A DNA stretch of 64,000 nt from Bacteroidaceae bacterium. Lineage in GTDB: Bacteria > Bacteroidota > Bacteroidia > Bacteroidales > Bacteroidaceae. The stretch lies in the NCBI GenBank assembly GCA_017535725.1, contig JAFXTO010000010.1, forward strand, positions 62,001 to 126,000, in the 5' to 3' direction. The notes beneath the pieces are model-generated. The model was not told where the DNA came from, ran no database searches, and saw only the letters and a list, made by a program, of their open reading frames with translations. Below, one piece after another: positions 20,645 to 62,528 of this stretch. Positions within the stretch are counted from its first letter, which is position 1. Every line of letters starts with the position of its first letter. The position numbers and the translations under genes are program-made.

Positions 20645-20769
20645 TTTTATTTTTCATTCTTTCATTTGCCGCCATTCGGCGTCAACACAGAGTTCACAGA
20701 GCAGACAGAGGCCACAGAGCTAACTTTTATTTTTCATTTTTCATTTTTTATTCTTTCATTTTTCCTTCT
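20645..20769. repeat. Intergenic repeats after the pectate lyase gene
   Basis: Contains TTTTTCATTCTTTCATT iterations and, at 20663-20724, a dispersed element beginning CATTTGCCGCCATTCGGCG followed by CACAGAG-type units. The same element recurs at 62293-62354, and its CACAGAG units also occur inside carA. No gene or clear terminator seen. Confidence 0.75.
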
Positions 20770-23995: not shown

Positions 23996-24840
23996 AATAT
24001 ATCCTCCTCGCACTCTTCCTTTTCGTCGTAATCGGTGCCTTTGCTGCCTCCCATAGCTCATCGAGCCCGTTGCCGTCTGGCGATGCTCCCTCCGATAAGA
24101 AGCACAAGGGCAAGAAAGTCCTCACCTACGACGACCTCCTTCCTCAGCCCGACTCCCTCCCTGCCTCCCTCTCTCCCCAGCAGCCCCTGGCCGATGATAA
24201 CCCCATGACTGTCGAAGTCCGCGGCCACAGCACCAACCGCAAGATTCAGGGCATTGACGTCTCTCACTATCAAGGTACTATCAACTGGAACAAGGTTGCC
24301 GGTAGTGGCGAGGTCAGCTATGTCTACATCAAGGCCACCGAGGGCGAGAAGCTCGTGGATGCCACCCTGCGACCCAACCTCTTTGGCGCTCGCCGGGCAG
24401 GGCTTTACGTGGGTGTCTACCATTTCTTCCGTCCCAACGTTGGTGTTCAGCAGCAGTTCCTGAATTTCACCAGCAATGTCAATATTCGTGAGATGGACCT
24501 CATTCCTATTATCGACATCGAGCATCTTGGACGTGTTTCCAAGTCTACCTTCCAAGCCCGCCTCAGGCAGTTCCTCGGCAAGGTGGAACGCCATTTCGGA
24601 GTGCGCCCCATCCTTTATACCTCGCGCGATTTCTATAATAAATACCTCGCCGGTCCTTTCACGAACTATAAATATATGATTGCGCGTTACCACGAGGAAG
24701 TGCCCGAACTCTGTGACAATGCACCCTTCGTCATGTGGCAGTACACCTCCAAGGGTCGCTTACCAGGAATCAGTCATAACGTGGATCGCAGCTGCTTCAT
24801 GGATGACTACACCCTCGACGACATCCTCCTGAAACGCTAA
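23992..24840 (+). CDS. GH25 lysozyme-family muramidase
   Basis: Exported cell-wall hydrolase cutting the MurNAc-GlcNAc bond. Signal or anchor sequence KYILLALFLFVVIGAFAA, a disordered Ser/Pro linker to about residue 80, then the GH25 barrel: GIDVSHYQGTINW (catalytic Asp), YVYIKATEGEKLVD, YHFFRP, IPIIDIEHLG (catalytic DxE), PILYTSRDFYNKYL and FVMWQYTSKG. Length 282. The ATG overlaps the cdd stop. Function could be remodelling of self wall or attack on competitors. Confidence 0.93.
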   Translation: MKYILLALFLFVVIGAFAASHSSSSPLPSGDAPSDKKHKGKKVLTYDDLLPQPDSLPASLSPQQPLADDNPMTVEVRGHSTNRKIQGIDVSHYQGTINWNKVAGSGEVSYVYIKATEGEKLVDATLRPNLFGARRAGLYVGVYHFFRPNVGVQQQFLNFTSNVNIREMDLIPIIDIEHLGRVSKSTFQARLRQFLGKVERHFGVRPILYTSRDFYNKYLAGPFTNYKYMIARYHEEVPELCDNAPFVMWQYTSKGRLPGISHNVDRSCFMDDYTLDDILLKR

Positions 24841-24965
24841 ACTCTAAACTCAATAACTCAATAACTCAAAAACTCAATAACTCAATAACTCAAAAACTCA
24901 ATAACTCAAAAACTACTCTAAACTCTACACTCTAAACATTAAACATTAAACTTTAAACATTAATC
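24841..24965. repeat. CTCAATAACTCAAAAA iteration
   Basis: About nine 10-base units near CTCAATAACT, then CTAAACTCTACACT and AAACATTAAAC units. The same unit in opposite orientation (GAGTTATTGA) fills 59165-59320 and 60755-60815. Confidence 0.8.
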
Positions 24966-34322: not shown

Positions 34323-37300
34323 CTATAAATATGATAAATATAGGTAGTTGGTCTGAGCAGGATACTCTGCAGCAAGGGTATCAATCTGATTGACGGTGGG
34401 AACGAGGCCGAGTTCCTTCCTCCACTGGCGGATGAGGTGTCCGGCCTCTTCCATGGAATGCGTTTCACCAAGTCCGAGGGCACGGGCAATCTGGAAATCG
34501 GAGAAACCGTAAACCTTGGCTTCGCGGAGGAGAGTGACGAATTCGGGGGCTTCGAGGTATTCCAGCAGCTCGGTGTTGTCCATGAATTCAGTGAACTCGG
34601 AGAACTGGGCGAAGGATTGCAGACGTTCGTTGATGTGTATGATATGATGGAGCTTTTGTAGGAACCAGCGGTCTATCTTCGTGAACTGGTGAATCTGCTG
34701 TACGCTGTAGCCTACCATCATGGCCTTGGCGATGACAAATATGCGTGTGTCGGTGGCATGTTGTAGTGCAGCTGGAATATCAGTCACGTGCTGTGCTTTG
34801 TTATCTACGAAGCCGTGCATCCCTTGACCTATCATTCGGAGTCCTTTCTGTATGGCTTCTTCGAAGGTGCGCCCTATGGCCATCACTTCGCCAACACTCT
34901 TCATCGAGGAACCCAGTTCGTGGTTCACGCCGTGGAACTTGGACAAATCCCATCGAGGAATCTTGCATACCACATAGTCGAGGGCTGGCTCGAAGAAGGC
35001 ACTGGTGGTCTTGGTGACAGAGTTCTTCAGGTCGAAGAGGCCGTAGCCGAGACCGAGTTTGGCGGCGACGAAGGCGAGGGGATAGCCTGTTGCCTTGGAG
35101 GCGAGAGCGGAGGAGCGGGAGAGGCGTGCATTCACCTCGATGACCCGATAATCCTCTGACTGTGGGTCGAGGGCATACTGTACGTTGCACTCGCCCACGA
35201 TGCCGATATGACGGATAATCTTGATGGCAAGGGCTCGGAGTTTGTGGTACTCACTGTTTGTCAGGGTCTGTGAAGGAGCTACCACAATGGATTCACCTGT
35301 ATGAATGCCCAGCGGGTCGAAGTTCTCCATATTACAGACCGTGATGCAATTATCAAAACGGTCGCGTACCACCTCATACTCGATTTCTTTCCAGCCTTTC
35401 AGCGACTTTTCTACCAGTACTTGTGGCGAGAACGAGAATGCTTCTTCGGCCTGAACCAGCAGCTCTTCGTCATTATCACAAAAGCCGGAACCGAGACCGC
35501 CGAGGGCGTAGGCTGCACGTAGAATAACGGGGAATCCCAATTCGTGGGCTGCTTTCTGCACTTCCTCTACCGTGGAACAAGCCTCGCTCTTGATGGTCTT
35601 CACGTCAATCTCATCGAGTCGTTTCACGAACAGTTCACGGTCTTCGGTGTCAATGATGGCTTGAATGGGGGTGCCGAGTACTTTGACACCATACTTATCC
35701 AAAACCCCTCGTTTGTAGAGTTCCACTCCGCAGTTCAAGGCGGTCTGTCCACCAAACGACAACAAGATACCATCGGGACGTTCCTTTTCGATGACACGTT
35801 CCACGAATTCGGGCGTTACGGGCTGGAAATAAACGACATCGGCCACATCCTTTGAAGTTTGTACTGTAGCGATATTCGGGTTAATGAGTATGCTTCTCAC
35901 CCCCTCTTCCTTCAACGCCTTCAGGGCCTGTGCTCCAGAGTAGTCAAACTCGCCCGCCTGGCCAATCTTCAAGGCGCCAGAACCGAGGAGCAACACACTC
36001 TTTATAGTTGACGAGTAGACGAGTTCTTCAAGCGTGAAGCGTCGCAAGGCGCCGAGCGGACGAGTTCTTGAGGTTTCAAGCGAGCAAGCTCGAGCGGACA
36101 AGTTGTTACCTTCATCTATCAACCTGTCAACTTGTTTACTTTTCAACTTGTCAACTAAAGAAACGAACTCATCAAACATCCATTCAGTATCGGTTGGACC
36201 ACTACAAGCCTCTGGGTGGAACTGTGCCGAGAACCAAGGGTTCGTCTTGTGGCGGATGCCTTCGTTGGAACCATCGTTCATGTTCACAAAGAGGGGTTCC
36301 CAATCGGAGGGTAGGGTGCTGTCATCTACAGCATAGCCGTGATTCTGCGAGGTGATGAAGCAGCGGGTGGTTCCTACTTGACGAACAGGTTGGTTATGCG
36401 AACGATGTCCATATTTTAACTTGTATGTTTTTGCGCCAGCAGCACGTGCCAGCAGTTGATTACCCAGGCAGATGCCCATAAGGGGACGGATAAAGACACT
36501 CCCCACGCCCTCCCTGTTAGGGAGCGAGCAGTTACTATTGATAGCTTCTTTTTGCAGAAAAACACGGATGTGTTCTACTGTCTTACCGCATTGCTCGGGG
36601 TCGCCAGGTCCATTGGCCAGGAAGAGACCGTCGAAATCAAGCTGGTTGAAGTCGTAGTCCCAAGGAACGCGGATGACTTCCACACCCCGCTTGAGGAGAC
36701 AGCGGATAATGTTGGCCTTCACTCCGCAATCCACGAGTACAACCTTTGGTGGCACAGAGAATGCTGAGGAAACAGAGGACACAGGGTTTATTTCTTCCGC
36801 AGTCGGTTTGTAGGTGATCACTTCCTTGCAACTCACCTGTTCCACCCAGTTTATAGAGCCGTAGGCAAGATTCTCTTGAGGGTCTATATCTTCTATATGG
36901 CTTAGACCTTCTATAACAATCCGTCCTCTCATCACGCCGTGCTCGCGGAGGAGTTTGGTGAGGCGGCGGGTGTCGATTCCTGTGATAGCAGGAATCTTCT
37001 CGCGTTTAAGCCACGAGCCCAGCGACTCCTTGCCATTCCAATGAGAATACTCCTCGCTGTATTCAGCAACAATAAGCCCTTTGACGTGGATTTTCTCGCT
37101 TTCCATGAACAACGGAAGCATATTTCTCTGTAAACTCTGTTCTCTCTCTGTGCTCTTTGTTTCGGGTACACCATAGTTACCTATCAGCGGATAAGTAAAT
37201 GTCAGTATCTGTCCAGCATAGCTTGGGTCTGTCAAGCTCTCTGGGTATCCCGTCATGGCGGTATTGAACACTACTTCGCCCATCGTGTTTTGCTCAGCTC

Positions 37301-37364: not shown

Positions 37365-37520
37365 ATTGTCGTTATTACGTTATTTCGTTATTACGTTTTA
37401 CCGTCAATATTCAACGTTTAGTTTCGCTGACTTTCGTCACGACTCGGCCATTTCAAGCAAGCTTGATGGCTCTCGCTGCTCCGAAAGTTCAACGTTTCAA
37501 CCTTTCAACTTTTCAACCTT
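37365..37520. repeat. carAB-asnB spacer with dispersed repeats
   Basis: Holds GTTATTACGTTATTTCG units (37370-37400), a 58-base dispersed element at 37425-37482 (CGCTGACTTTCGTCACGACT, then CTCGGCCATTTCAAGCAAGC, ending CTCGCTGCTCC) repeated at 62362-62420, and TTCAACCTTTCAAC units. No convincing promoter box for carAB was found. Confidence 0.75.
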
Positions 37521-39272
37521 TCAATATGCCTTTTCATGAACCCCTTTTACAGCGCGTCCACTGGGGTCGTTCATATTCTTGAATGCGGCATCCCATTCGA
37601 GTGCAATGGCTGTGGAGCAGGCAACTGAAGCCTCCTGGTTCACACTGCGGGCTGCGCTGTCGCTGGGGAAATGCTCCGCAAAGATACTACGGTAGTAATA
37701 CTCTTCCTTGTTGAGTGGCGGGTTGATGGGGAAACGTTCGGCAGCGTGCGCCATCTGTTCGTCCGTGACAGCCTCGGAGGTGATTTTTTTCAGCGTGTCG
37801 ATCCAAGAATAACCCACTCCGTCGCTGAACTGTTCCTTCTGTCGCCAGGCGATTTCATCGGGCAACATATCAGCGAAAGCCTCGCGGACAATGCGCTTTT
37901 CAATCTCGAAGCCGTCGCCGCCCTTCTTCAAACCACACATTTTCGCTTCTGGATTCGTTCGCATCGCCACATCCAAGAACTCTTTATCGAGGAACGGTAC
38001 GCGTCCCTCAACGCCCCAGGCACAGAGGCTCTTGTTGGCACGGAGACAATCGTAGTAGTGTAGCTTGCTGAGCTTTCGGACTGTCTCTTCGTGGAAAGCC
38101 TGCGCGTTGGGTGCTTTGTGGAAATAGAGATAACCACCGAAAATCTCATCAGCTCCCTCGCCACTGAGCACCATCTTGATACCCATCGATTTGATGACGC
38201 GAGCCAACAGGTACATCGGTGTGGAGGCCCGGATGGTAGTCACATCGTAGGTCTCTATGAAATAGATAACATCGCGGATGGCATCGAGGCCCTCCTGAAT
38301 GGTGTAGTTAATTTCGTGGTGTACGGTGCCGATGTGCTTGGCCACGAGGCGAGCTTTCTCCAAGTCTGGTGCCCCCTTCAAACCTACTGCGAAGCTATGC
38401 AGACGGGGCCAGTAGGCACGGGTCTGGGAGTCGTCCTCAATGCGGTGCTCGCTGAACTTCTCGGCGATGGCTGAAACGACACTTGAATCCAATCCACCGC
38501 TAAGCAAAACGCCGTATGGTACATCAGACATTAGCTGTCGCTTTACGGCCGCTGTGAGGGCTTCGTGTATTTCTTCCGCGCTGGCGGGGTTGTCTTTTAC
38601 TGCTTGATAGTCGAACCAGTCGCGCTTGTAATAACGCTTCATGCCTGGTTCCTTGCTCCAGTAATAATGCCCTGGTAGGAACGGCTCGTAGCGCTCGCAT
38701 TGTCCTTCGAGGGCCTTCAACTCGCTGGCCACATAAACCTTTCCATCGCTGTCATAACCTATATAAAGAGGTATCACGCCAATGGGGTCGCGGGCAATCA
38801 GGAATTCATCCCGTTCTTCGTCGTAGAGGGCAAAGGCGAAAATGCCGCTGAGCTGTTCCAGCATAATTGACAAGTTGTTTAGTTGTTTACTTTTCAACTC
38901 GTCAGCTCGAGCTTGCTCGCTTGAAACTTCAAGAATATTTCTCATTTCACGATACAATGCCAATATCACCTCGCAGTCACTGCCCGTCTGGAACTCATAC
39001 GATCCAGCAAACCGGCGACGGATTTCCTGATGGTTATATATTTCACCATTGACAGCCAATACCTGCTTGCGGTCAGGTGAGAACAACGGCTGTCCACCAC
39101 TCTCAGGATCCACGATACTCAGTCGTTCGTGGGCAAGGATGGCACTCCCGCCACAATATATTCCACTCCAGTCTGGTCCGCGATGACGAATCTTCTGACT
39201 CATACGCAACGCTTTCTGTCGTAAACCAGACGTTTGCTGCTTGATGTTAAAGATAGATACAATTCCACACAT
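37521..39272 (-). CDS. asnB: Asparagine synthase B (glutamine-hydrolysing)
   Basis: Converts aspartate plus glutamine to asparagine. Ntn glutaminase with Cys2 (MCGIVSIFN), HRGPDWSGI, AVNGEIYNHQ; synthetase domain with PP-loop LLSGGLDSSVVSAI and GEGADEIFGGYLYFHKAP. The 583 residues exceed the usual 550-555, explained by an insert at about residues 112-135 (ILEVSSEQARADELKSKQ) in the glutaminase domain that is encoded by a dispersed repeat. The insert sits just before GIFAFALYDEERD in a loop that is normally a few residues. It is 25 bases after pyrG. Confidence 0.96.
   Translation of the reverse strand: MCGIVSIFNIKQQTSGLRQKALRMSQKIRHRGPDWSGIYCGGSAILAHERLSIVDPESGGQPLFSPDRKQVLAVNGEIYNHQEIRRRFAGSYEFQTGSDCEVILALYREMRNILEVSSEQARADELKSKQLNNLSIMLEQLSGIFAFALYDEERDEFLIARDPIGVIPLYIGYDSDGKVYVASELKALEGQCERYEPFLPGHYYWSKEPGMKRYYKRDWFDYQAVKDNPASAEEIHEALTAAVKRQLMSDVPYGVLLSGGLDSSVVSAIAEKFSEHRIEDDSQTRAYWPRLHSFAVGLKGAPDLEKARLVAKHIGTVHHEINYTIQEGLDAIRDVIYFIETYDVTTIRASTPMYLLARVIKSMGIKMVLSGEGADEIFGGYLYFHKAPNAQAFHEETVRKLSKLHYYDCLRANKSLCAWGVEGRVPFLDKEFLDVAMRTNPEAKMCGLKKGGDGFEIEKRIVREAFADMLPDEIAWRQKEQFSDGVGYSWIDTLKKITSEAVTDEQMAHAAERFPINPPLNKEEYYYRSIFAEHFPSDSAARSVNQEASVACSTAIALEWDAAFKNMNDPSGRAVKGVHEKAY
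38867..38937. repeat. Dispersed repeat (family C) inside asnB
   Basis: Shares about 40 bases, in opposite orientation, with 36065-36108 in the carAB linker: TTCTTGARGTTTCAAGCGAG then CAAGCTCGAGC and GACRAGTTG. Read in frame as EVSSEQARADEL here and as SARACSLETSRT in carAB. Confidence 0.85.
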
Positions 39273-39297: not shown

Positions 39298-41115
39298 TTA
39301 CAATTTTTCAATACAGGCTTTGATAAACGAAATGAACAATGGATGCGGATGCAATACCGTAGACGAGTATTCAGGATGAAACTGCGTGCCGATGTACCAG
39401 CGCTTGTCTGGTATCTCGACAATCTCTACCAGATCGGCAGCAGGGTTGATTCCCACGCACTTCATGCCCATTGCCTCGTATTCCTCTTTAAAAACATTGT
39501 TAAACTCGTAGCGGTGACGGTGCCTTTCTCTGATAAGAAGACCGGACTCTCCCCCTGCCCTCCCTTTTAGGGAGGGAGCGGATTCTCCTGACTGAGAGTA
39601 TGCTTCAAAAGCTTTGCTTTCAGGTCGTAATAGGCACTCATAAGCTCCTAATCTCATAGTTCCGCCCATCTGGGTGATGGACTTTTGCTCTGACATGAGG
39701 TCTATAACATTTACGGGAGGCTCGATTTCCAAAGGTAACCGCTCCCTCCCTAAAAGGGAGGGCGGGGGGAGAGTCTGTTGGGTGTCAGGTCTCATCTCAG
39801 CGCTGTTGGCGTCCTTGTAGCCCAACACATTACGGGCGAATTCAATGACCATCATCTGCATACCCAGACAGATGCCGAAGGTTGGAATATCGTGCGTGCG
39901 AGTGTACTCTGCCGCGATAATCTTGCCCTCGATACCACGCTGGCCGAAACCAGGGCAAATGACGATGCCTGCCATGCCTTCGAGCTTCTTGGCCACGTTC
40001 TGACTTGTAATCTCTTCGCTGTTGACGAAGTGCAACTGTGCCTTCAGGTCGTTATAAATGCCAGCCAGATTCAGACTCTCTCGAATGCTCTTGTAGGCAT
40101 CCTGCAAGTGGTATTTTCCCACCAGCCCGATGTGAACTTCGCGCTTGGCGTTGCGCTGTTTGTCTAAGAAGTCACGCCAAGGTTTCATGGCTGGCGTCTC
40201 TCCCACTGGAATACCAATCTTACGCAAAATGGCTGCGTCAAGCCCTTGGGACTGCATACTCACTGGTACCTCATAAATGCTGGGCATATCCTCGCTTTGC
40301 ACCACGCACTCCAAATCGACGTTACAAAACGATGCCACCTTCATGCGCATAGAGTCGTCGAGGTGGCGTTCTGTCCTGAGGACGAGAATATCAGGCTGAA
40401 TCCCCATTCCTTGTAGTTCCTTCACGCTATGCTGCGTCGGTTTTGTCTTCAGTTCGTCAGCCGCCTTCAAGTAAGGTACGTAAGTCAGATGAACGCACAC
40501 TGCATCACGTCCTAACTGCCAACGCAGCTGACGGATAGCCTCCATAAACGGAGCACTTTCGATGTCGCCGATAGTACCGCCGACCTCTGTGATGACAAAG
40601 TCGTAGGGGGACTCTCCCCCCGCCCTCCCTGTTAGGGAGGGAGCAGAATGTCTTGTAGGCAGTTCTCTTTCAGAGTCAAAGGTAACTGCTCCCTCCCTGA
40701 CAGGGAGGGCGGGGGGAGAGTCTGGTATTCTCAGCATCCTCCGCTTTATCTCATCCGTAATGTGCGGCACCACTTGTATCGTCTTTCCCAGATAGTCGCC
40801 GTGCCGCTCGCGGTCTATTACCGTTTTGTAGATGCGCCCCGTCGTGATACTGTTGTTGCGTGTGGTGTGTATACCCGTAAACCTTTCATAATGTCCCAGG
40901 TCGAGGTCGGTCTCGAAACCATCCTCCGTCACGTAGCATTCGCCGTGCTCGTAGGGATTCAGCGTCCCTGGGTCGATGTTGATATACGGGTCGAATTTCT
41001 GAATGGTGACCTTGTAGCCACGTGCCTGCAGCAGTTTACCGATGGTGGCGGAGATGATTCCCTTGCCAAGCGAGGAAACCACGCCACCAGTTACGAAAAT
41101 GTATTTTGTATCCAT
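39298..41115 (-). CDS. pyrG: CTP synthase
   Basis: Amidates UTP to CTP with glutamine. Amidoligase domain: YIFVTGGVVSSLGKGI, PYINIDPGTLNPYEHGE, ITEVGGTIGDIES; GATase domain: the nucleophile in FGICLGMQMMVIEFARNV and the C-terminal QFHPEYSS. The 605 residues compare with about 535-545 in typical enzymes. The excess is three repeat-derived inserts at about residues 128-168, 446-462 and 511-524, all in frame. The native segment PPVNVIDLMSEQK to FEAYSQ lies between the last two. The active-site motifs are untouched, so the enzyme is probably functional. Confidence 0.96.
   Translation of the reverse strand: MDTKYIFVTGGVVSSLGKGIISATIGKLLQARGYKVTIQKFDPYINIDPGTLNPYEHGECYVTEDGFETDLDLGHYERFTGIHTTRNNSITTGRIYKTVIDRERHGDYLGKTIQVVPHITDEIKRRMLRIPDSPPALPVREGAVTFDSERELPTRHSAPSLTGRAGGESPYDFVITEVGGTIGDIESAPFMEAIRQLRWQLGRDAVCVHLTYVPYLKAADELKTKPTQHSVKELQGMGIQPDILVLRTERHLDDSMRMKVASFCNVDLECVVQSEDMPSIYEVPVSMQSQGLDAAILRKIGIPVGETPAMKPWRDFLDKQRNAKREVHIGLVGKYHLQDAYKSIRESLNLAGIYNDLKAQLHFVNSEEITSQNVAKKLEGMAGIVICPGFGQRGIEGKIIAAEYTRTHDIPTFGICLGMQMMVIEFARNVLGYKDANSAEMRPDTQQTLPPPSLLGRERLPLEIEPPVNVIDLMSEQKSITQMGGTMRLGAYECLLRPESKAFEAYSQSGESAPSLKGRAGGESGLLIRERHRHRYEFNNVFKEEYEAMGMKCVGINPAADLVEIVEIPDKRWYIGTQFHPEYSSTVLHPHPLFISFIKACIEKL
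39544..39583 (-). repeat. Palindromic arm (family A) in pyrG, distal
   Basis: GCCCTCCCTTTTAGGGAGGG flanked by GACTCTCCCCC, encoding SAPSLKGRAGGES just before the conserved RERHRHRYEFNN. Inverted partner of the arm at 39730-39776. Confidence 0.85.
39730..39776 (-). repeat. Palindromic arm (family A) in pyrG, middle
   Basis: CTCCCTCCCTAAAAGGGAGG with outer GAGAGTC and an edge TACCTTTG on the minus strand at 39730-39737. Encodes [14 protein letters not shown] before VNVIDLMSEQ. Confidence 0.85.
40610..40733 (-). repeat. Composite palindromic element (family A) in pyrG
   Basis: Two inverted arms containing GCCCTCCCTGACAGGGAGGG and CTCCCTCCCTAACAGGGAGG around a 35-base spacer. Encodes [19 protein letters not shown] and [18 protein letters not shown], almost identical at DNA and protein level to the copy in dapF at 45931-46033. 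Contains minus-strand TACCTTTG at 40677-40684. Confidence 0.92.
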
Positions 41116-45245: not shown

Positions 45246-45506
45246 TACTTAATAAATGTTACTTGTGAGCGTCCTGTTATTACACATTGCAATGTTTTCG
45301 CTGCAAATGTACGACATTTTGTCAATGAAACAATCAATATTCAATCGTTTTGTAACGTAACACATTCTTTCTTTGACATGTGTCAATTATTAATTACTTC
45401 ATATATACTTTTTGATACTAAATGTGCTCGTTTCTGTGACAAAATGACTACCTTTGCATCGGAAATAAGAACAAAAGCATTGTTTATGCGTGTAAATAAC
45501 ACCAAA
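45246..45506. promoter_or_regulatory. Divergent control region of the nitrogen locus
   Basis: Holds a minus-strand -7 box TACATTTG (45304-45311) 59 bases before glnK and a plus-strand -7 box TACCTTTG (45449-45456) before dapF. Between them are an exact 14-base palindrome TTGACATGTGTCAA (45373-45386), a half site TGTCAA (45320-45325) and an imperfect palindrome TGTAACGTAACA (45351-45362). These are candidate operators for a nitrogen or Crp-type regulator. The spacing allows one bound protein to act on both operons. Confidence 0.65.
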
Positions 45507-46418
45507 ATGGTAGATAAAATACATTTTACGAAGATGCATGGGGCTGGCAACGATTATATATACGTTGACACCTTATTATATAATATAAAGGATCCAGCTG
45601 CTGCGGCTCGCCTGTGGAGCGACCGTCATAAGGGCATTGGCTCGGATGGACTTGTGCTTATCGGACGAAGCACCATTCCAGAGGCGGATTTCACGATGCG
45701 CATTTTCAATGCCGACGGCTCGGAGGCACTAATGTGTGGCAATGCCAGCCGCTGCGTAGGGAAATATGTCTATGAGAGGGGACTGACCAAAGAGACACAA
45801 ATAAAACTCCTTACGCTTTCGGGTATTAAGGTGCTTGACCTTCTTGTGAGGGACGGCATCGTGGAAAGTGTGACAGTTGATATGGGAGAGCCCGTTTTTG
45901 AGAACCCAAAACAATATAATCCCACATACTCTACTCCCGCCCTCCCTGTTAGGGAGGGAGCAGTTACCTTTGACTCTGAAGTAGAGCTGCCTACAAGACA
46001 TCCTGCTCTAACAGGGAGGGCGGGGGGAGAGTCCGCCGGGGTCGAGTCTTCCCTTTTTGTCTCAATGGGCAACCCGCACTATGTCATCTTTACCGACGAT
46101 GTGGATGCTGTGGAGACTTTAGGAAAAGAAATGGAATACCATCCCGCGTTTCCCGAACGTTGCAACATCGAATTTGCTGAAATGCGTCCTGACGGCATTC
46201 GGGTGCGCGTTTGGGAACGCGGCAGTGGCATCACGATGGCTTGTGGAACTGGTGCCTGTGCTACGGCTGTAGCTGCCTGTAAGACAGGTCGCGCAGGTTG
46301 CCGGAGCCACATCATCATGGATGGCGGAACGCTAGAGATAGAATGGAGCGAGGCTGACAATCATGTTTATATGACGGGGCCGGCAGAGTTCGTATTTGAA
46401 GGAGATGTGGAGGAATGA
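45507..46418 (+). CDS. dapF: Diaminopimelate epimerase
   Basis: Interconverts LL- and meso-diaminopimelate for lysine and peptidoglycan. Start at [21 protein letters not shown], the family N terminus; in-frame ATGs at 45486 and further upstream are possible, but 45378 lies before the promoter. Catalytic cysteines in [10 protein letters not shown] and [12 protein letters not shown]. The 303 residues exceed the usual 265-275 because residues about 142-176 are a repeat-encoded insert before [11 protein letters not shown]. It opens the rightward arm of the locus, 31 bases before dapL, whose product it uses. Confidence 0.95.
45931..46033 (+). repeat. Composite palindromic element (family A) in dapF
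   Basis: Left arm GCCCTCCCTGTTAGGGAGGG, edge TACCTTTG (45965-45972), 35-base spacer, right arm with AACAGGGAGGGCGGGGGGAG. Encodes [18 protein letters not shown] then [16 protein letters not shown]. About 90 percent identical to pyrG 40610-40733 and read in the same frame. The right arm has lost part of its inner palindrome. Confidence 0.92.
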
Positions 46419-47651: not shown

Positions 47652-50600
47652 ATGGTTAGTCAACAAGGATTATATCAAGAAGCTTATGAGCATGATGCTT
47701 GTGGCGTGGGAATGATTGTGAACATCCACGGTGGAAAAAGTCATGAACTGGTGGATAACGCCCTGAAGGTGCTGGAAAATATGGAGCACCGAGGAGCCGA
47801 GACGCGCGACAAGACGGGCGACGGCGCAGGTATCATGGTGCAGATTCCACATGAGTTTATTCTTCTGCAGGGTATTCCTGTGCCTGAAAAAGGAAAATAT
47901 GGTACAGGATTGGTGTTCCTTCCGAAGGACGAAAAGGCTCAACAGGAAATTCTGAGCGTGATGATTGAGGAGATTGAGCGCGAGGGACTACAGCTGATGC
48001 ACGTAAGAACAGTGCCGACGTGTCCGGAAGTACTGGGCGATGCTGCAAGGGTCGTGGAGCCGGATATTAAGCAGATCTTCATAACAACCAGCCTCACCCC
48101 CGACCCCTCTCCAAAGGGCGAGGGGAGTAGTATCATTCAGGGTGATGTGTCAGAGCTTGACCGTTCATTATATAAAATAAGGAAGAGGATAGAGGACCGT
48201 ATAGCCGAAATGGCAAAGGTATCTACTCCCCTCTCCAATCGGAGAGGGGTCGGGGGTGAGGCTTATGTCTGCTCCCTTTCTTCAAAGAATCTTATCTACA
48301 AAGGAATGCTGACGAGCGGACAGCTGCGGCGCTATTTCCCTGACTTGTCGAGTCCCTATTTCACAAGCGGACTGGCGCTGGTGCACTCACGTTTCAGCAC
48401 AAACACATTCCCTACGTGGTCATTGGCCCAGCCTTTCCGCTTGCTGGCGCACAATGGTGAGATTAACACCATTCGCGGTAACCGTGGCTGGATGAAGGCT
48501 CGCGAGAGCGTGCTGAACAGCGAGGCGCTGGGTGATATCAAGGACTTGAGGCCGATTGTACAGGAGGGCATGAGTGATTCTGCCAGTCTGGATAACGTCT
48601 TCGAGTTCCTGATGATGAGCGGACTCTCGCTGCCGCAAGCGATAGCTATCTTGGTGCCGGAAAGCTTCAACGACAAGAACCCGATTAGCGAGGATTTGAA
48701 GGCATTCTATGAATATCATTCAATCTTGATGGAGCCTTGGGACGGGCCTGCTGCACTGTTGTTCAGCGACGGCCGTTATGCAGGCGGAATGCTTGACAGG
48801 AACGGTTTGCGTCCTAGCCGTTACACGATTACCAAGAGCGGCATGATGGTTGTGGCCTCAGAAGTTGGCGTGATGGACTTCGAGCCGGGCGACGTGGTAA
48901 GCAAGGGTCGTCTGCAGCCGGGCAAGATTCTACTTATCGACACACAGGAAGGAAAGATATACTACGACGGCGAAATCAAGGAGCAGCTGGCAAAGGCTCA
49001 TCCTTATCGCGAGTGGCTGAACGAGAACCGTGTGCAATTGGAGAAACTGAAGAGTGGAAGGCACGTGGAAAACGGTGTGGAGAATCTTCAGCAGAAGCTC
49101 GTTACCTTTGGTTTCGGCCAGGAGGACATTGATAAGACTATCGTTCCTATGGCGACAGCAGGTCAGGAGCCTGTAGCTGCAATGGGTAACGATACTCCGC
49201 TGGCTGTTATCAGCGATCGTCCTCAGGTATTGTTCAACTATTTCCGCCAGCAGTTTGCTCAGGTGACGAATCCTGCTATCGACCCGATTCGCGAGGAGCT
49301 GGTAATGAGCCTGACAGAATACATCGGTGCCGTGGGAACGAACATCCTGACACCAGATGCATCGAACTGTAAGATGGTTCGTCTGCCGCAACCCGTGCTC
49401 ACAAACACACAACTCGATATATTATGTAATATAAGGTATAAAGGTTTCAAAACCAAGAAGCTGGCTATGACATTTAGCCTCACCCCCAGCCCCTCTCCGA
49501 TTGGAGAGGGGAGTAATTACCTTTCAAGTGCGGAAGAGGGGTTGCGTTTGGCTCTTGATAAGCTATGTAAGGATGCTGAGGCCTGCGTTGACGAGGGCGT
49601 GAACTACATTATATTGACAGATAAAATCGATGATGCAAAGGTGTCTACTCCCCTCTCCAATCGGAGAGGGGTCGGGGGTGAGGCTTTTATCCCCTCCCTG
49701 TTGGCAGTCTCTGCCGTTCACCATTATCTGATTTCAGTGGGCAAGCGCGTACAGACAGCGCTGATTGTGGAGAGCGGTGAGATTCGCGAGGTGATGCATG
49801 CGGCGCTGTTGCTAGGATATGGAGCAAGCGCGCTGTGTCCATATATGACGTTCGCCGTGCTGGATGACTTGGTGAAGAAAGGCAAGATTCAGGAGGAGTA
49901 CGCTACGGCGGAGAAAAACTACATCAAAGCGGTGGACAAGGGTCTTAAGAAGATTATGTCGAAAATGGGCATCAGCACCATCCGCAGCTATCGCGGCGCA
50001 AAGATTTTCGAGAGCATCGGACTGAGCGAAAACCTGCTGAGACGGTACTTCGGCACCGAAGTGAGTACCATCGGTGGTGTTGGGCTTAAGGAGATTGCTC
50101 GCGATGCTATCCGTCTGCACGAGGCAGGCTGTGGAGTCGGTCGCTGTGCCACCGTGACACCCCTTCCAAACCAGGGGCAGTTCGCATGGCGCAAGGACGG
50201 CATCAAGCACGCGTGGAACCCGGAGACGATAGCGAAACTGCAACTGGCTACCCGTCAGGGCAACTACGATAAGTTTAAGGAGTGGGCCAAGATTGTCGAC
50301 GAGAAGGAGAGCCCTATCTTCATCCGCGATTTCTTCGGCTTCAAGAAGGCAGCCAAGCCTACTCCTATTGACGAGGTGGAGCCGGTGGAATCCATCGTCC
50401 GGCACTTCGTGACGGGTGCCATGAGTTTTGGCGCCTTGAGTATCGAGGCGCACGAGGCGCTGGCTCTGGCCATGAACAAGCTGGGTACACGCAGCAATAC
50501 CGGCGAGGGTGGCGAGGACAACGCTCGCTACCATACAGAGGTGGATGGCGTTTCCCTGTCCAGCAAGACTAAGCAGATTGCATCAGGACGCTTTGGCGTG

Positions 50601-52449: not shown

Positions 52450-54054
52450 ATGGGAAATCTTAAAGCTTTTATGGAGATACACCGCCTGGAGGCGGGCTAC
52501 CGTCCTATTCACGATAGAATCCACGACTTCGGCGAGGTGGAGCAGACGCTCAACACTCGCGAACGCAAGCTGCAGGCCTCGCGCTGCATGGATTGTGGCG
52601 TGCCTTTCTGCCACTGGGCCTGTCCGTTAGGTAACAAAGCCCCCGAGTGGAATGACGCCCTATACAAGGGCGATTGGGAGCTGGCTTATCGCCTGCTGAA
52701 CAGCACCAACCCCTTCCCCGAGTTCACCGGTCGCATCTGTCCTGCCCTCTGCGAGAAGGCTTGCGTGCTCAACCGCTTCAACCACGAGCCCACTACCAAC
52801 CGCGAGGACGAGGCCGCCATCACCGAGGCCGCCTTCCGCGAGGGCTACATACAGCCGCGCACCGATATTAAGCGCATCCTGAAGCCCTCCACCACCGTGT
52901 CCTCCGCCGTGCCCACCGCCGCCGTTCCCTCCGCCGCGCCCTCCTCCGCCGTTCCCTCCGCCGCGCCCGCCGCCACCGTGCCCGATGCATTAGCATCGGG
53001 TACCCCCGTCCGCGTCGCAGTCATCGGCGCCGGCCCTGCCGGCCTCGCTTGCGCCGATGCCCTCAACCAGATGGGTTACACCGTCACTGTCTTCGAGAAG
53101 AACGAAGCCGCTGGCGGCCTCCTCCGCTACGGTATCCCCAACTTCAAGCTGAACAAGGCCATCATTGACCGCCGTCTCAAACTGATGGAACAGGAGGGCA
53201 TCAAGTTTAAGTACAATGTCAGCCTCACCCCCAACCCCTCTCCTAAAGGAGAAGGGAGTGATTACTTCTGCATTCAGGATGAGAACGGACATACTACTCC
53301 CCTCGCCTTTAGGAGAGGGGACGGGGGTGAGGCTTTCGATGCCATCGTCCTCGCCACAGGCACCCCCACCGCCCGCGACCTCCCCATTACCGGCCGCTCG
53401 TTGAAAGGTGTCCACTTCGCCCTTGAGCTACTGTCGCAGCAGAACCGCGTCCTCGCAGGTATGGAGTTCAGCAAGGAGGAGCGTATCACCGCCAAAGGCA
53501 AGGACGTCCTCGTCATTGGTGGCGGCGACACAGGATCCGACTGCATCGGCACCGCCCACCGTCAGGGCTGCAAGTCCGTCACTCAGATTGAAATCATGCC
53601 CCGTCCTGTCGAAGGCCCCGAAGACCCGCAGAATCCATGGCCCAACTGGCCTCGCACCCTCAAAACCACCTCGTCGCACGAGGAAGGATGCACCCGCCGC
53701 TGGAACATCAACACCCTTGAATTCCTCTCCGCCGCCACTGTGCCCGACGGTTTTCCCGTCGGGAAAGATGCTGCTCCTGATCACGTCGCCGCCGTTCGCA
53801 TCCAGCCCATCGACTGGAAGCCCAACCCTGCTGGTGGCCGTCCCCTTATGGTCGAGGTCGGCGAACCGGAAATCATTAAAGCCGAACTTGTTCTGCTGGC
53901 TATGGGATTCTTGAAGCCAGAACACCCAGAATACCCAGAAAACGTCTTCGTCTGTGGCGATTCTGCCAATGGCGCAAGCCTCGTCGTTCGTGCGATGGCC
54001 AGCGGTAAGCAGACCGCCAATCGCGTTCATGAATATTTAAGTAAAATCTTTTAA
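52450..54054 (+). CDS. gltD: Glutamate synthase small subunit
   Basis: NADPH-oxidising flavoprotein partner of GltB. Start ATG at 52450 (GNLKAFMEIHRLEAGYRPIH). N-terminal 4Fe-4S cysteines CMDCGVPFCHWACP and CPALCEKACVLN, FAD motif VAVIGAGPAGLACADAL, NADPH motif VLVIGGGDTGSDCIG and C-terminal VFVCGDSANGASLVVRAM. The 534 residues exceed the usual 450-490. Inserts: an Ala/Pro/Ser-rich linker at about 147-185 between the Fe-S and FAD parts, a pair of palindromic arms at 258-295, and a VPDGFPVG hairpin at 432-438. The gap from gltB is 115 bases without a clear promoter. Confidence 0.96.
   Translation: MGNLKAFMEIHRLEAGYRPIHDRIHDFGEVEQTLNTRERKLQASRCMDCGVPFCHWACPLGNKAPEWNDALYKGDWELAYRLLNSTNPFPEFTGRICPALCEKACVLNRFNHEPTTNREDEAAITEAAFREGYIQPRTDIKRILKPSTTVSSAVPTAAVPSAAPSSAVPSAAPAATVPDALASGTPVRVAVIGAGPAGLACADALNQMGYTVTVFEKNEAAGGLLRYGIPNFKLNKAIIDRRLKLMEQEGIKFKYNVSLTPNPSPKGEGSDYFCIQDENGHTTPLAFRRGDGGEAFDAIVLATGTPTARDLPITGRSLKGVHFALELLSQQNRVLAGMEFSKEERITAKGKDVLVIGGGDTGSDCIGTAHRQGCKSVTQIEIMPRPVEGPEDPQNPWPNWPRTLKTTSSHEEGCTRRWNINTLEFLSAATVPDGFPVGKDAAPDHVAAVRIQPIDWKPNPAGGRPLMVEVGEPEIIKAELVLLAMGFLKPEHPEYPENVFVCGDSANGASLVVRAMASGKQTANRVHEYLSKIF
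52888..53005 (+). repeat. Ala/Pro-rich coding repeat plus hairpin in gltD
   Basis: Iterated GCCGTTCCCTCCGCCGCGCC units encoding SAVPSAAPSS, ending in the hairpin CCCGATGCATTAGCATCGGG (52981-53000), read as VPDALASG. Confidence 0.85.
53221..53334 (+). repeat. Inverted pair of palindromic arms in gltD
   Basis: Left arm 53221-53268 (AGCCTCACCCCCAACCCCTC, encoding SLTPNPSPKGEGSDYF) and right arm 53291-53334 (ending GACGGGGGTGAGGCT, encoding TPLAFRRGDGGEA), separated by only about 22 bases. Confidence 0.9.
53743..53763 (+). repeat. Family B hairpin in gltD
   Basis: CCCGACGG / CCGTCGGG stem around a short T/C loop, preceded by GCCACTGTG. Encodes TVPDGFPVG. The 5' flank GCCACNGTGCCCGAYG is shared with 52976-52988 and 55634-55648. 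Confidence 0.85.
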
Positions 54055-58209: not shown

Positions 58210-59157
58210 TTACAGGGGATATTCCTCGAAGGCGTAGAGTACGGTGGAGAGGTAGCGTTCACCAGTATCAGGCAACAGTACCACGATTTTTTTGCCTTTG
58301 TTTTCCGGGCGCTTAGCCACTTCGATAGCAGCGAAGAGAGCAGCACCGGCAGAAATACCTACCAGCAGGCCCTCCTGTTGGGCAATCTCGCGACCAGTGC
58401 GGATAGCGTCGTCGTTCTCCACGTCAAACACCTCGTCTATAACATCAGAGTTGTAGGTCTTGGGAATGAAACCAGCTCCGATACCTTGAATCTTGTGTGG
58501 GCCGCTCTGTCCGCCGTTCAGTACAGGGCTCGACTTGGGCTCTACGGCAATGATCTTCACGTTGGGATTCTGTTCCTTCAGGTATTTACCCGTGCCGCTA
58601 ATTGTTCCTCCGGTGCCCACGCCACCGATGAAGATGTCAACCTGTCCGTCGGTGTCGCGCCAAATCTCGGGACCCGTAGTGGCGTAGTGCTTAGCGGGGT
58701 TGGCTGCATTCTCGAACTGCTGGAGGATGACGCTGCCGGGAATCTCATCCCTGAGGGCTTCTGCCGCACGGATGGCGCCTGGCATACCGTCCTTACCAGG
58801 AGTGAGGCGTACTTCAGCACCGTAGGCCTTCACGAGGTTGCGACGCTCAACACTCATCGTCTCGGGCATTGTCAGAATCAAATGGTAGCCTTTGACGGCA
58901 GAGACCAGTGCCAGTCCTACGCCAGTGTTGCCGCTGGTGGGTTCGATGATAGTGGCTCCAGGTTTCAGAATGCCTTTCGCCTCTGCATCCTCAATCATGG
59001 CGAGGGCAATGCGGTCTTTGACGCTGCCGCCGGGGTTGAAAAACTCTACTTTAGCTATAACTGGGGTTTCCAGTCCCTTGGCCTGTGAATACTTATTGAG
59101 CTCTACAAGTGGGGTGTTGCCGACGAGCTCGGTCAGCTGTTTTGCAATGTGTGACAT
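58210..59157 (-). CDS. cysK: Cysteine synthase A
   Basis: PLP enzyme joining sulfide to O-acetylserine. PLP lysine K47 in [12 protein letters not shown], substrate loop [14 protein letters not shown] phosphate loop [13 protein letters not shown] and SAGAALFAA. Length 315 is normal. Downstream of metY on the same strand but separated by 300 bases of filler, so joint transcription is uncertain. Confidence 0.96.
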
Positions 59158-59164
59158 GTTATTG

Positions 59165-59458
59165 TGAGTTTTAATTGAGTTATTGAGTTATTGAGTTATT
59201 GAGTTTATGAGTTATTGAGTTTATGAGTTTTTGAGTTATTGAGTTATTGAGTTATTGAGTTATTGGGTTTATGAGTTATTGAGTTTATGAGTTTTTGAGT
59301 TATTGAGTTATTGAGTTTTTTATTCTTTCGCGGCCTTCGATATTCCGTTATAACGTTATTCCGTTATTACGACAAATCATCGGCCGCCAATATTTCAATC
59401 TTTCAACGTTTCAATCTTTCAACGTTTCAATCTTTCAACGTTTCAATCTTTCAACGTT
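59165..59458. repeat. Filler between cysK and metY
   Basis: About fifteen 10-base units of GAGTTATTGA / GAGTTTATGA (59165-59320), GTTATAACGTTATTCCG units (59340-59372) and seven copies of TTTCAATCTTTCAACG (59395-59465), the last running into the metY stop region. No gene or clear promoter seen. Confidence 0.85.
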
Positions 59459-60748
59459 TCAACATTTCTCCAGCGCCTGCGCCAAATCCTCGAGGATATC
59501 GTCGATGTGCTCAGTACCGATAGACAGACGAACGGTGGAGGGGGTGATATGTTGTTCGGCAAGTTCCTCGGGCGAGAGTTGAGAGTGCGTGGTGGTGTAG
59601 GGATGAATCACCAGACTCTTCACATCGGCCACGTTGGCAAGCAGCGAGAAGATTTGAAGGGCGTCGATGAACTTCCAAGCTTCTTCCTGTCCTCCCTTAA
59701 TCTCGAATGTGAAGATGGAGCCAGCGCCGTAGGGGAAATATTTCTGATAGAGCTGGTGATCGTGGTGACTCTCGAGGGCCGGATGATTCACGCGGGCGAC
59801 CTTAGGATGGTTCTTCAGAAATTCTACCACCGCCAGTGCATTTGCCACATGACGCTCCACGCGCAGGCTCAGTGTCTCGACGCCTTGCAAGAGGATGAAT
59901 GCATTGAAGGGCGAAATGGCAGCACCCGTATCGCGCAATAGCACCGCACGGATGCGAGTCACAAAGGCTGCAGGACCAGCCACATCTGCAAAGACCGCAC
60001 CATGGTATGAGGGGTCGGGCTTTGCCAGCGTAGGGAAACGGTCGGGGTTCTGTTTCCAATCGAACGTGCCGCCATCGACGATGACACCACCGAGCGAGGT
60101 TCCGTGACCGCCCAGAAACTTGGTGGCGGAATGAACGACAACGTCTGCTCCGTGCTCCAAGGGACGAATCAGGTAGGGCGTTGCGAAGGTGTTATCAACG
60201 ATGAACGGGATTCCGTGCTTGTGAGCCACGGCAGCTACACCTTCGATGTCCAGCACGTCGGAGTTTGGATTACCGAATGTTTCGGCATATATTACTTTTG
60301 TGTTCGGTTGAATGGCAGCTTCGAGGGCTGCGAGGTCGTTGATATTGATAATGGTGTTCGTGATGCCTTGTGTACTGAGTGTGTGGGTGATGAGGTTGTA
60401 GCTGCCGCCGTAGAGATTGTCGGCAGCTACGATATGGTCGCCAGCCTGGACAATATTCTGCAGGGCGTAGGTGATGGCAGCTGCACCCGAGGCGACGGCC
60501 AGTCCTGCCACGCCACCCTCGAGGGCTGCCACGCGGTCTTCGAAGACTCCTTGCGTGGAGTTGGTCAGGCGACCATAAATGTTTCCTGCATCGCGAAGAC
60601 CGAAGCGGTCAGCTGCGTGTTGAGAGTTGCGGAACACATACGATGTGGTCTGATAGATGGGCACCGCACGGGCGTCGGTGGCGGGGTCAGCCTGTTCTTG
60701 GCCTACATGAAGTTGAAGGGTCTCGAAACGAAATTTTTTCTGTGACAT
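59459..60748 (-). CDS. metY: O-acetylhomoserine aminocarboxypropyltransferase (sulfhydrylase)
   Basis: PLP enzyme making homocysteine from O-acetylhomoserine and sulfide. 429 residues, within the MetY range. RFETLQLHVGQEQADPATDA, YGRLTNSTQGVFEDRVAALEGG, FVDNTFATPYLIRP preceded by YAETFGNPNSDVLDIE, and the PLP lysine in HSATKFLGGHGTSLGG. An Lrp-family regulator gene is divergent 313 bases away and a -7 box lies at 60925-60932. A cystathionine gamma-synthase role is less likely given the length and VHSATKFLGGHG context. Confidence 0.95.
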   Translation of the reverse strand: MSQKKFRFETLQLHVGQEQADPATDARAVPIYQTTSYVFRNSQHAADRFGLRDAGNIYGRLTNSTQGVFEDRVAALEGGVAGLAVASGAAAITYALQNIVQAGDHIVAADNLYGGSYNLITHTLSTQGITNTIININDLAALEAAIQPNTKVIYAETFGNPNSDVLDIEGVAAVAHKHGIPFIVDNTFATPYLIRPLEHGADVVVHSATKFLGGHGTSLGGVIVDGGTFDWKQNPDRFPTLAKPDPSYHGAVFADVAGPAAFVTRIRAVLLRDTGAAISPFNAFILLQGVETLSLRVERHVANALAVVEFLKNHPKVARVNHPALESHHDHQLYQKYFPYGAGSIFTFEIKGGQEEAWKFIDALQIFSLLANVADVKSLVIHPYTTTHSQLSPEELAEQHITPSTVRLSIGTEHIDDILEDLAQALEKC

Positions 60749-62079: not shown

Positions 62080-62528
62080 CATATTATTTTCGGTGTGGCA
62101 TCGTCTATTTGTCAAATATTTGAGAATCATACTCCCTACTTTTTCAAATTTTAACAGAAAAAGAGCGCACCCGTCATCGAATTTTTATATTTGTCGGCAG
62201 TGCGCGGCGGTTGAGGAAAACGTAAGTGGTATTAACAAACAGCGCACCGCCGTGTCTCGCGACAAAGCGGTGCGCTTCAATTTTAATTCTTACATTTGCC
62301 GCCATGCGGCGTCAACACAGAGGACACGGAGAATACAGAGACCACAGAGTCAACTATAGCATCGCTGACTTTTGTCACGACTCGGCCATTTCAAGCAAGC
62401 TTATTGGCGCTCGCTGCTCCAGAAAATATGAAACTAGTTTCATACTTTATATGACTTTTCTCGTCATGACACTGCTAAAACAAGTTTTGTATTGCTCATT
62501 TGACTTGACGAAAAAGTTCTGCGTTTTG
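62080..62528. repeat. Gene-free spacer with dispersed repeats
   Basis: About 450 bases without a convincing gene. It holds CATTTGCCGCCATGCGGCG plus CACAGAG units (62293-62354, as at 20663-20724), the 58-base element at 62362-62420 (as at 37425-37482), and a perfect 18-base palindrome at 62427-62444. A run near 62190-62290 repeats GTGCGCGG/GTGCGCT-type motifs. Confidence 0.75.
62427..62444. promoter_or_regulatory. Perfect palindrome TATGAAACTAGTTTCATA
   Basis: An 18-base perfect dyad of operator-like form. It lies 85 bases beyond the 3' end of the Crp-type gene and far from any start codon in the window, so its target is unclear. Confidence 0.5.

Follow-up and report, generated by a model that had tools for sequence, protein, structure and literature searches.

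Rickettsia palindromic elements, as the accessible part of PMC10969869 presents them, are palindromic repeats of about 150 bp that form several families and lie in frame inside unrelated genes. REP sequences and REPINs are short palindromes arranged in inverted doublets, with several families per genome (PMC3116915, accessible part), and REPs located inside genes are on record as well (PMC3733652, accessible part). A DUF559 gene has been assigned to the EDxHD family in the accessible part of PMC9403480. The element described here, which occurs in a 64-kb stretch of DNA (the window) and well beyond it, resembles the Rickettsia elements in its effect, REPINs and MITEs in its form, and the EDxHD/Vsr-like homing nucleases in its enzyme. 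In the open-licence literature on DUF559, as far as its texts were accessible, we found no description of a DUF559 gene between palindromic arms, and the accessible parts of PMC3733652, PMC3116915, PMC10969869, PMC12907096, PMC12308824, PMC9403480, and PMC3943268 do not describe the element. One of these sources reports, in its accessible part, that repeated segments of Legionella with a transposase and a DUF559 gene are hotspots of mutation and recombination, which fits a mobile or repeated nature of DUF559 segments.

Results

The window contains two copies of a short element, here assigned to family A, one inside dapF (45927..46035, plus strand, host ORF 45378-46418 on the same strand; the left arm and head are somewhat diverged) and one in the first loop of pyrG (40610..40722, minus strand, ORF 39298-41115, also minus; 113 bp, from GACTCTCC to GGAGAGTC). 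The first-pass annotation had recognized them as the same palindromic element of about 100 bp, and the copies are indeed 88 to 89% identical (89% over query positions 6 to 103, E 2.1e-34, in the search of the source genome) and form an 84-nt inverted match at 90%, a likeness far beyond chance. Each copy is a pair of inverted arms, read directly at 45929-45959 (+) and 46001-46031 (-) in dapF and at 40612-40642 (+) and 40690-40720 (-) in pyrG. The typical family A arm is GACTCTCCCCCCGCCCTCCCTGTTAGGGAGGGAGC, in which a C-rich outer head is followed by a GC-rich palindrome. The pyrG copy ends at 40722, not at 40733 as first proposed. The central spacer had been taken to be 35 bases long and free of palindromic constraint; a spacer is present, but counted from one 30-base arm core to the other it is 43 nt long in dapF and 49 nt in pyrG, and many copies have conserved spacer ends. 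In agreement with the annotation, both copies are translated within their host ORFs into nearly the same peptide, in which an SA is variable, and the hosts are unrelated, the Pfam assignments being DAP_epimerase for dapF and CTP_synth_N/GATase for pyrG. PyrG had also been claimed to be longer than its family, and it has 40 residues where the best-matching solved CTP synthase, 9kao, has three, between residues 128 and 132.

Further units are present in the window. On the C-terminal side of pyrG, family A arms at 39545..39579 (+) and 39741..39775 (-), the latter in the minority reading frame, flank native GATase sequence. A second repeat, family B, forms two pairs of arms in an ORF that we take to be gltB. 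The arms of the first pair lie in two loops, at 48090..48130 (+) and 48213..48263 (-), with native sequence between them, and those of the second lie at 49476..49524 (+) and 49635..49685 (-). A family B short element is found at 53221..53334 (+) in the ORF that follows (556 aa, stop to stop), presumably gltD-like, and a single family A-like arm at 36494..36540 (+).

The dapF/pyrG element is one family among several. When the dapF copy was used as a 103-bp BLAST query against the source genome, 102 matching pieces were obtained, bearing in mind that a palindromic arm can match more than once, and the family B pattern CTCACCCCCnnCCCCTCTCC, with up to 2 mismatches allowed, occurred there at 48 sites versus 7 for the reversed control pattern. 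In the source-genome stretches that were read, 96 of 108 arm-like units lay within ORFs that measure at least 150 aa from stop to stop, a small number of these ORFs being doubtful. The hosts that exceeded the NCBIfam cut-off were MutS2, ValRS, Mfd, UvrA, IspD, TrpRS, GlnRS, and GcvPA; rhamnulokinase and PurM-like hosts scored below it, and 6 of the 20 host proteins scanned gave no NCBIfam family at the limit used. Arms also occur at source-genome contig ends (L035-L038), where they are uninformative.

An exact 30-base scan of a genome collection, with overlapping copies removed by context, yielded at least 105 loci in named MAGs, with at least 183 distinct A arms. The carriers, as judged from the 80 of these loci that are listed, are MAGs titled Prevotellaceae, Bacteroidaceae, or Bacteroidales bacterium, many of them with a ruminant source. 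In the 105 loci obtained, 150 of 183 A arms lay in ORFs of at least 200 aa, in contrast to the mainly extragenic placement in REPIN/RAYT systems, and although the consensus leaves two frames open per strand, one of them predominates: among plus arms 45 of 52 use it, and among minus arms 86 of 98 do. Heads-out pairs accounted for 67 of 71 neighbours within 1 kb (A arms, same 105 loci), an inverted-doublet arrangement shared with REPIN/RAYT systems. The outer end, 5'-RGACTCTCC in family A, is sharp: over 82 A pairs, A is found at -1 in 159/164, G at -2 in 160/164, and a purine at -3 in 160/164. It differs from the GTAG end tag of REPIN/RAYT systems, and the outer ends of these 82 pairs showed no excess of target duplication, unlike MITEs.

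Comparison with relatives showed that the host genes also exist in an uninterrupted form. PyrG was aligned for 30 loci, out of 51 genomes with a match, which provided 29 loci besides that of the window (23 from congeners and 6 from other families), and none of the 29 carries the dapF/pyrG element at the PyrG loop. Judged by eye, the loop near residue 129 looks empty in 15 of the 23 congeners, contains other repeats in 6 (for example, VDELTSGQ..RQLVNS and PLPTSPKGEE..PPLGGQEGG), and contains a longer stretch of ambiguous kind in 2. It also looks empty in all six loci from other families; the first-pass annotation had named the same residues across distant phyla as an argument against an insertion. 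Insertion-free alleles, which it had suggested seeking by aligning relatives, were thus found for PyrG, and DapF, compared within the genus only, behaves alike: a similar arm peptide, APSLQGRAGGGS, is present in G015, and there is nothing in most of the others. In GltB, likewise compared within the genus, the first family B pair is common to the window and G015. The second loop pair holds family B in the window, other repeat-like pairs in G015, G016, and G003, and none in G031, G034, G035, and G036. Single arms were seen in DapF of G018 and G019 and in GltB of G025. The PyrG, DapF, and GltB loops are permissive sites that have been struck repeatedly. Taken together, the many copies in unrelated genes, the empty alleles in relatives, and the sharp ends support the ORF-compatible mobile repeat proposed at the outset, and they strongly indicate mobility. 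A second kind of in-frame insert was seen in an asnB-like ORF at about 38860-38910 of the window, made of TTGACAAG / CTTGTCAA octamers (VDKLTSxQ..RQLVNS) in a partly inverted arrangement; this kind of insert occupies similar loops in PyrG of G031, G018, and G016 and in GltB of G016.

The first-pass annotation did not reach the several families, the same architecture in other phyla, or a larger form of the element that encodes a nuclease. This form is a cassette of about 0.5 kb composed of a left arm, a sole gene of 121 codons for DUF559 (PF04480, a Vsr-like nuclease of the PD-(D/E)XK type), and an inverted right arm. When 8 kb of two carrier loci, L118 and L134, were compared, they aligned only over L118 3528-4024, i.e., 497 bases from arm to arm including DUF559; the neighbours are presumably argB-like and speA-like genes in L118 and L130 and fmt-like and clc-like genes in L134. 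The source genome has two intact cassettes (L014 5711-6199 and 10288-10772) and a third with an in-frame TGA (L328, on C42). The arms of the third share one nested repeat, in a 128-base inverted match, which suggests that they may have been homogenized. In one source-genome cassette, the stop codon of DUF559 and the start codon of the following gene overlap, and the right end of the same cassette encodes the N-terminus of that gene. Insertion can therefore supply a neighbour with a new start, and similar N-termini occur in several further genes that begin close to an arm. Residues E29, Q48, D57, E68, G71, D83, and R86, which are of active-site type, are identical in 75/75 DUF559 sequences. The DUF559 query matches PDB 3hrl (E 3.3e-16) and, weakly, 3r3p, entitled 'Mobile intron protein' (E 0.0027), which we take to be I-Bth0305I. 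The homology with EDxHD/Vsr-like homing endonucleases, weak as it is to 3r3p, is accompanied here by inverted-arm bounds and by gene-less copies, in which the element departs from them.

The inner ends of the arms connect the short copies with the cassette. A typical short spacer measures 49 or 52 nt and has AGCGGTTACCTTTG at its beginning and TTCARRACATTCTGCT at its end, and the sequence just inside the cassette arms typically begins AGCGGTCACCTTTC and ends CTCAAATACATTCTGCT. When 86 A pairs, four of which are cassettes, were classed by these ends, 39 were left-right, 21 left-left, and none right-right, with one end unclassed in 25 and both ends in 1; left-right ends were found in 18 of the 32 short A pairs (spacer below 60 nt). 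Many of the short copies have thus retained the inner cassette ends on both sides and are best read as putative deletion derivatives that arose by internal deletion. Inverted ends together with internal deletion of a longer element are also known from MITEs, a likeness that holds in part (18/32 short and 39/86 of all pairs being left-right), but the longer element here encodes a DUF559 nuclease and no recognized transposase, whereas MITEs have a transposase-encoding parent. The left-left pairs are a second class, to which, by eye, the pairs that flank native DNA, such as family B in gltB, seem to belong by their inner ends. Our guess is that such native-flanking pairs could originate from inverted-repeat templated repair. 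The gltB family B pairs are not accounted for by a deletion-derivative model, and the single arms also count against it.

To express how generally arms flank DUF559, a local inverted match scoring at least 15 within 260 bases was counted as flanking throughout. By this score, inverted arms flank 30 of 32 DUF559 loci (31 of 33 rows, as L351 appears twice), whereas 0 of 165 control windows taken at these loci are flanked; the 32 comprise 30 loci from the genus and 2 from named MAGs, after two of 34 (L330 and L352) had been left out for too weak a protein match. Among the best matches of a search of the phylum Bacteroidota (30, minus two at contig edges), 11 of 28 DUF559 loci were flanked versus 0 of 140 controls, and 17 of 28 fell below the threshold. 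According to Pfam, two of the Bacteroidota copies lie in frame inside MetH (L381) and LeuRS (L361), and both are read through. The MetH copy has inverted arms (17.5), and a second MetH copy, L387, is just under the threshold at 14.0; the LeuRS copy scores 7.0, i.e., no arms by score, and has arm-like peptides near its edges. L361 and L387 are included in the 17. Outside the phylum, 9 of 12 plasmid DUF559 loci were flanked versus 2 of 72 controls, the control maximum being 15.5 against the threshold of 15. These 12 loci, from cyanobacteria, Deinococcus, and Alphaproteobacteria, were picked from 36 matches for taxon spread; two further E. coli matches were read and left unscored.

Several observations on individual loci can be added. 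In Deinococcus plasmids L394, L396, and L398, DUF559 cassettes that are related to each other occupy two distinct junctions in a group of hpa genes, and in D. psychrotolerans and D. proteolyticus the inverted repetition extends even beyond the arms, as if the cassette had been inserted in a hairpin or one flank had been copied. Deinococcus QL22, considered as an empty site, lacks the cassette that D. psychrotolerans has between paaD and paaZ, although the alignment at the junction is poor. In E. coli, the DUF559 gene ycjD lies between sapF and fabI (L401, L402, and L404), with arm-like palindromes on its 3' side. Among genomes with any match, pieces of a 900-bp ycjD query were present at a median of 4 places, and a place covering at least 80% of it was present in 3362 of 5426 genomes. 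As a strain-level test, ycjD gave no clean empty site, since the four ycjD-less alleles examined carry an efflux operon next to sapF.

Discussion

We consider it likely, from the sequence comparisons, that the segments in dapF and pyrG, of about 110 bp each, represent short non-autonomous versions of a DUF559 mobile cassette of about 0.5 kb whose movement would depend on its nuclease. The DUF559 nuclease would cut or nick the target DNA, the cassette would be copied into the break in a homing-like manner, and the short gene-less copies would be moved in trans. Since the sequences contain no stop in the frames in which they are read, an insertion would add a hydrophilic loop peptide without breaking the host gene, and at operon junctions it would create a new N-terminus or C-terminus. 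The strong frame bias may reflect selection for reading frames that do no harm. That the nuclease itself drives the movement is a narrower claim, for which we see about an even chance. It is favoured because of the tight and repeated enclosure of the gene by arms in several phyla and because of its kinship to homing nucleases. The load of arms per genome, in contrast, tracks the RAYT-like gene better than DUF559, and this counts against DUF559 as the mover. In 37 genomes, at least 10 A matches were found in 9 of 22 carriers versus 0 of 15 non-carriers of the RAYT-like gene (p 0.005) and in 7 of 22 carriers versus 2 of 15 non-carriers of DUF559 (p 0.26), and for at least one A match the p values were 0.018 and 0.092, respectively, in what is a small sample of related genomes that includes incomplete MAGs, covers family A only, and is uncorrected for phylogeny.

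Because of this association, we retain as a possible, though rather doubtful, explanation that these are REPIN-type elements moved in trans by the RAYT-like Y1 transposases of the genus, with DUF559 genes as passengers trapped between arms. REPINs are not known to show target duplication, and both its absence here and the heads-out doublets would fit; the RAYT-like family, which is related to Y1_Tnp and diverged, has matches in 25 of 41 genomes, including 9 of the 9 with at least 10 A matches. The place where a mobilizing gene would be sought speaks differently: inverted arms within 260 bp were found at none of 20 RAYT-like ORFs (4 from the source genome and 16 from 12 congeners), against 30 of 32 scored DUF559 loci, so the repeat-flanked gene is DUF559 where REPIN/RAYT systems have a cognate RAYT. 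Moreover, arm-flanked DUF559 recurs in Deinococcus and cyanobacteria, and the arms are without the GTAG tag that RAYT-linked REPs are reported to carry (PMC3733652, accessible part). The RAYT-like proteins themselves (L060:520-1926 and L307-L326) combine a Y1_Tnp-related region with a C-terminal part, and genomes of the genus encode them at several places; in many copies the Y1 region contains a linker that varies and often consists of tandem repeats, and a single arm-like palindrome lies near L318.

Replication errors, in which a hairpin prompts template switching and an inverted copy of the arm is made close by with no dedicated enzyme, seem unlikely to us as the general explanation. Such switching could explain the left-left pairs, the gltB pairs that flank native sequence, and the L328 arms with a nested insert on both sides, but it fails to explain how arms with exact outer ends came to be dispersed over many unrelated genes, and the cassettes in new neighbourhoods. 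It is very improbable that selection has kept the segments as functional parts of the proteins, such as regulatory or localization peptides: the strong frame bias and the placement in loops would be expected of these, but the same loops hold different repeats or peptides and hold none in many congeners, and conservation is at the DNA level and not in the peptide alone. An assembly or binning artefact, which the origin of the window in a 76% complete genome of 72 contigs and the listing of only MAGs or uncultured isolates as named carriers might bring to mind, is hardly credible, as the same arms occur in MAGs from several named projects and the same architecture in plasmids recorded as complete sequences.

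With the DUF559 cassette as the probable parent, the repeats have the appearance of reduced versions of a selfish element that has received little study. The annotation of the Rickettsia palindromic elements as an analogy is apt in effect, in that both insert in frame in unrelated protein genes, a likeness in description; the arms here also bound nuclease cassettes, whereas the accessible part of PMC10969869 names no nuclease-cassette parent. More broadly, there may be a multi-phylum class of mobile elements with a DUF559/Vsr-like gene, inverted palindromic arms, and no transposase, through which host translation passes or restarts, and whose gene-less derivatives seeded peptides in core genes of rumen Bacteroidales; we are evenly divided on whether this wider picture will hold. 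If it is true, DUF559 would be the mobilizing enzyme that has so far been missing for a large group of palindromic repeats, this Pfam family, whose function is not known, would gain a role in mobility, and the inserts would show in many natural examples how core enzymes acquire new peptide segments with the frame unbroken. For annotation, it should be kept in mind that such inserts lengthen proteins, and they may contribute to the low completeness estimates of MAGs of the genus.

The window also contains other repeated sequences. Arrays of 8-base units of the TTGAGTTA and CAACGTTT types are found at 59150-59330, 24839-24926, 37472-37540, and 59386-59486. Further interspersed repeats link 37419-37482 with 62357-62420, which are 91% identical, and 20646-20725 with 62276-62355, which are 84% identical.
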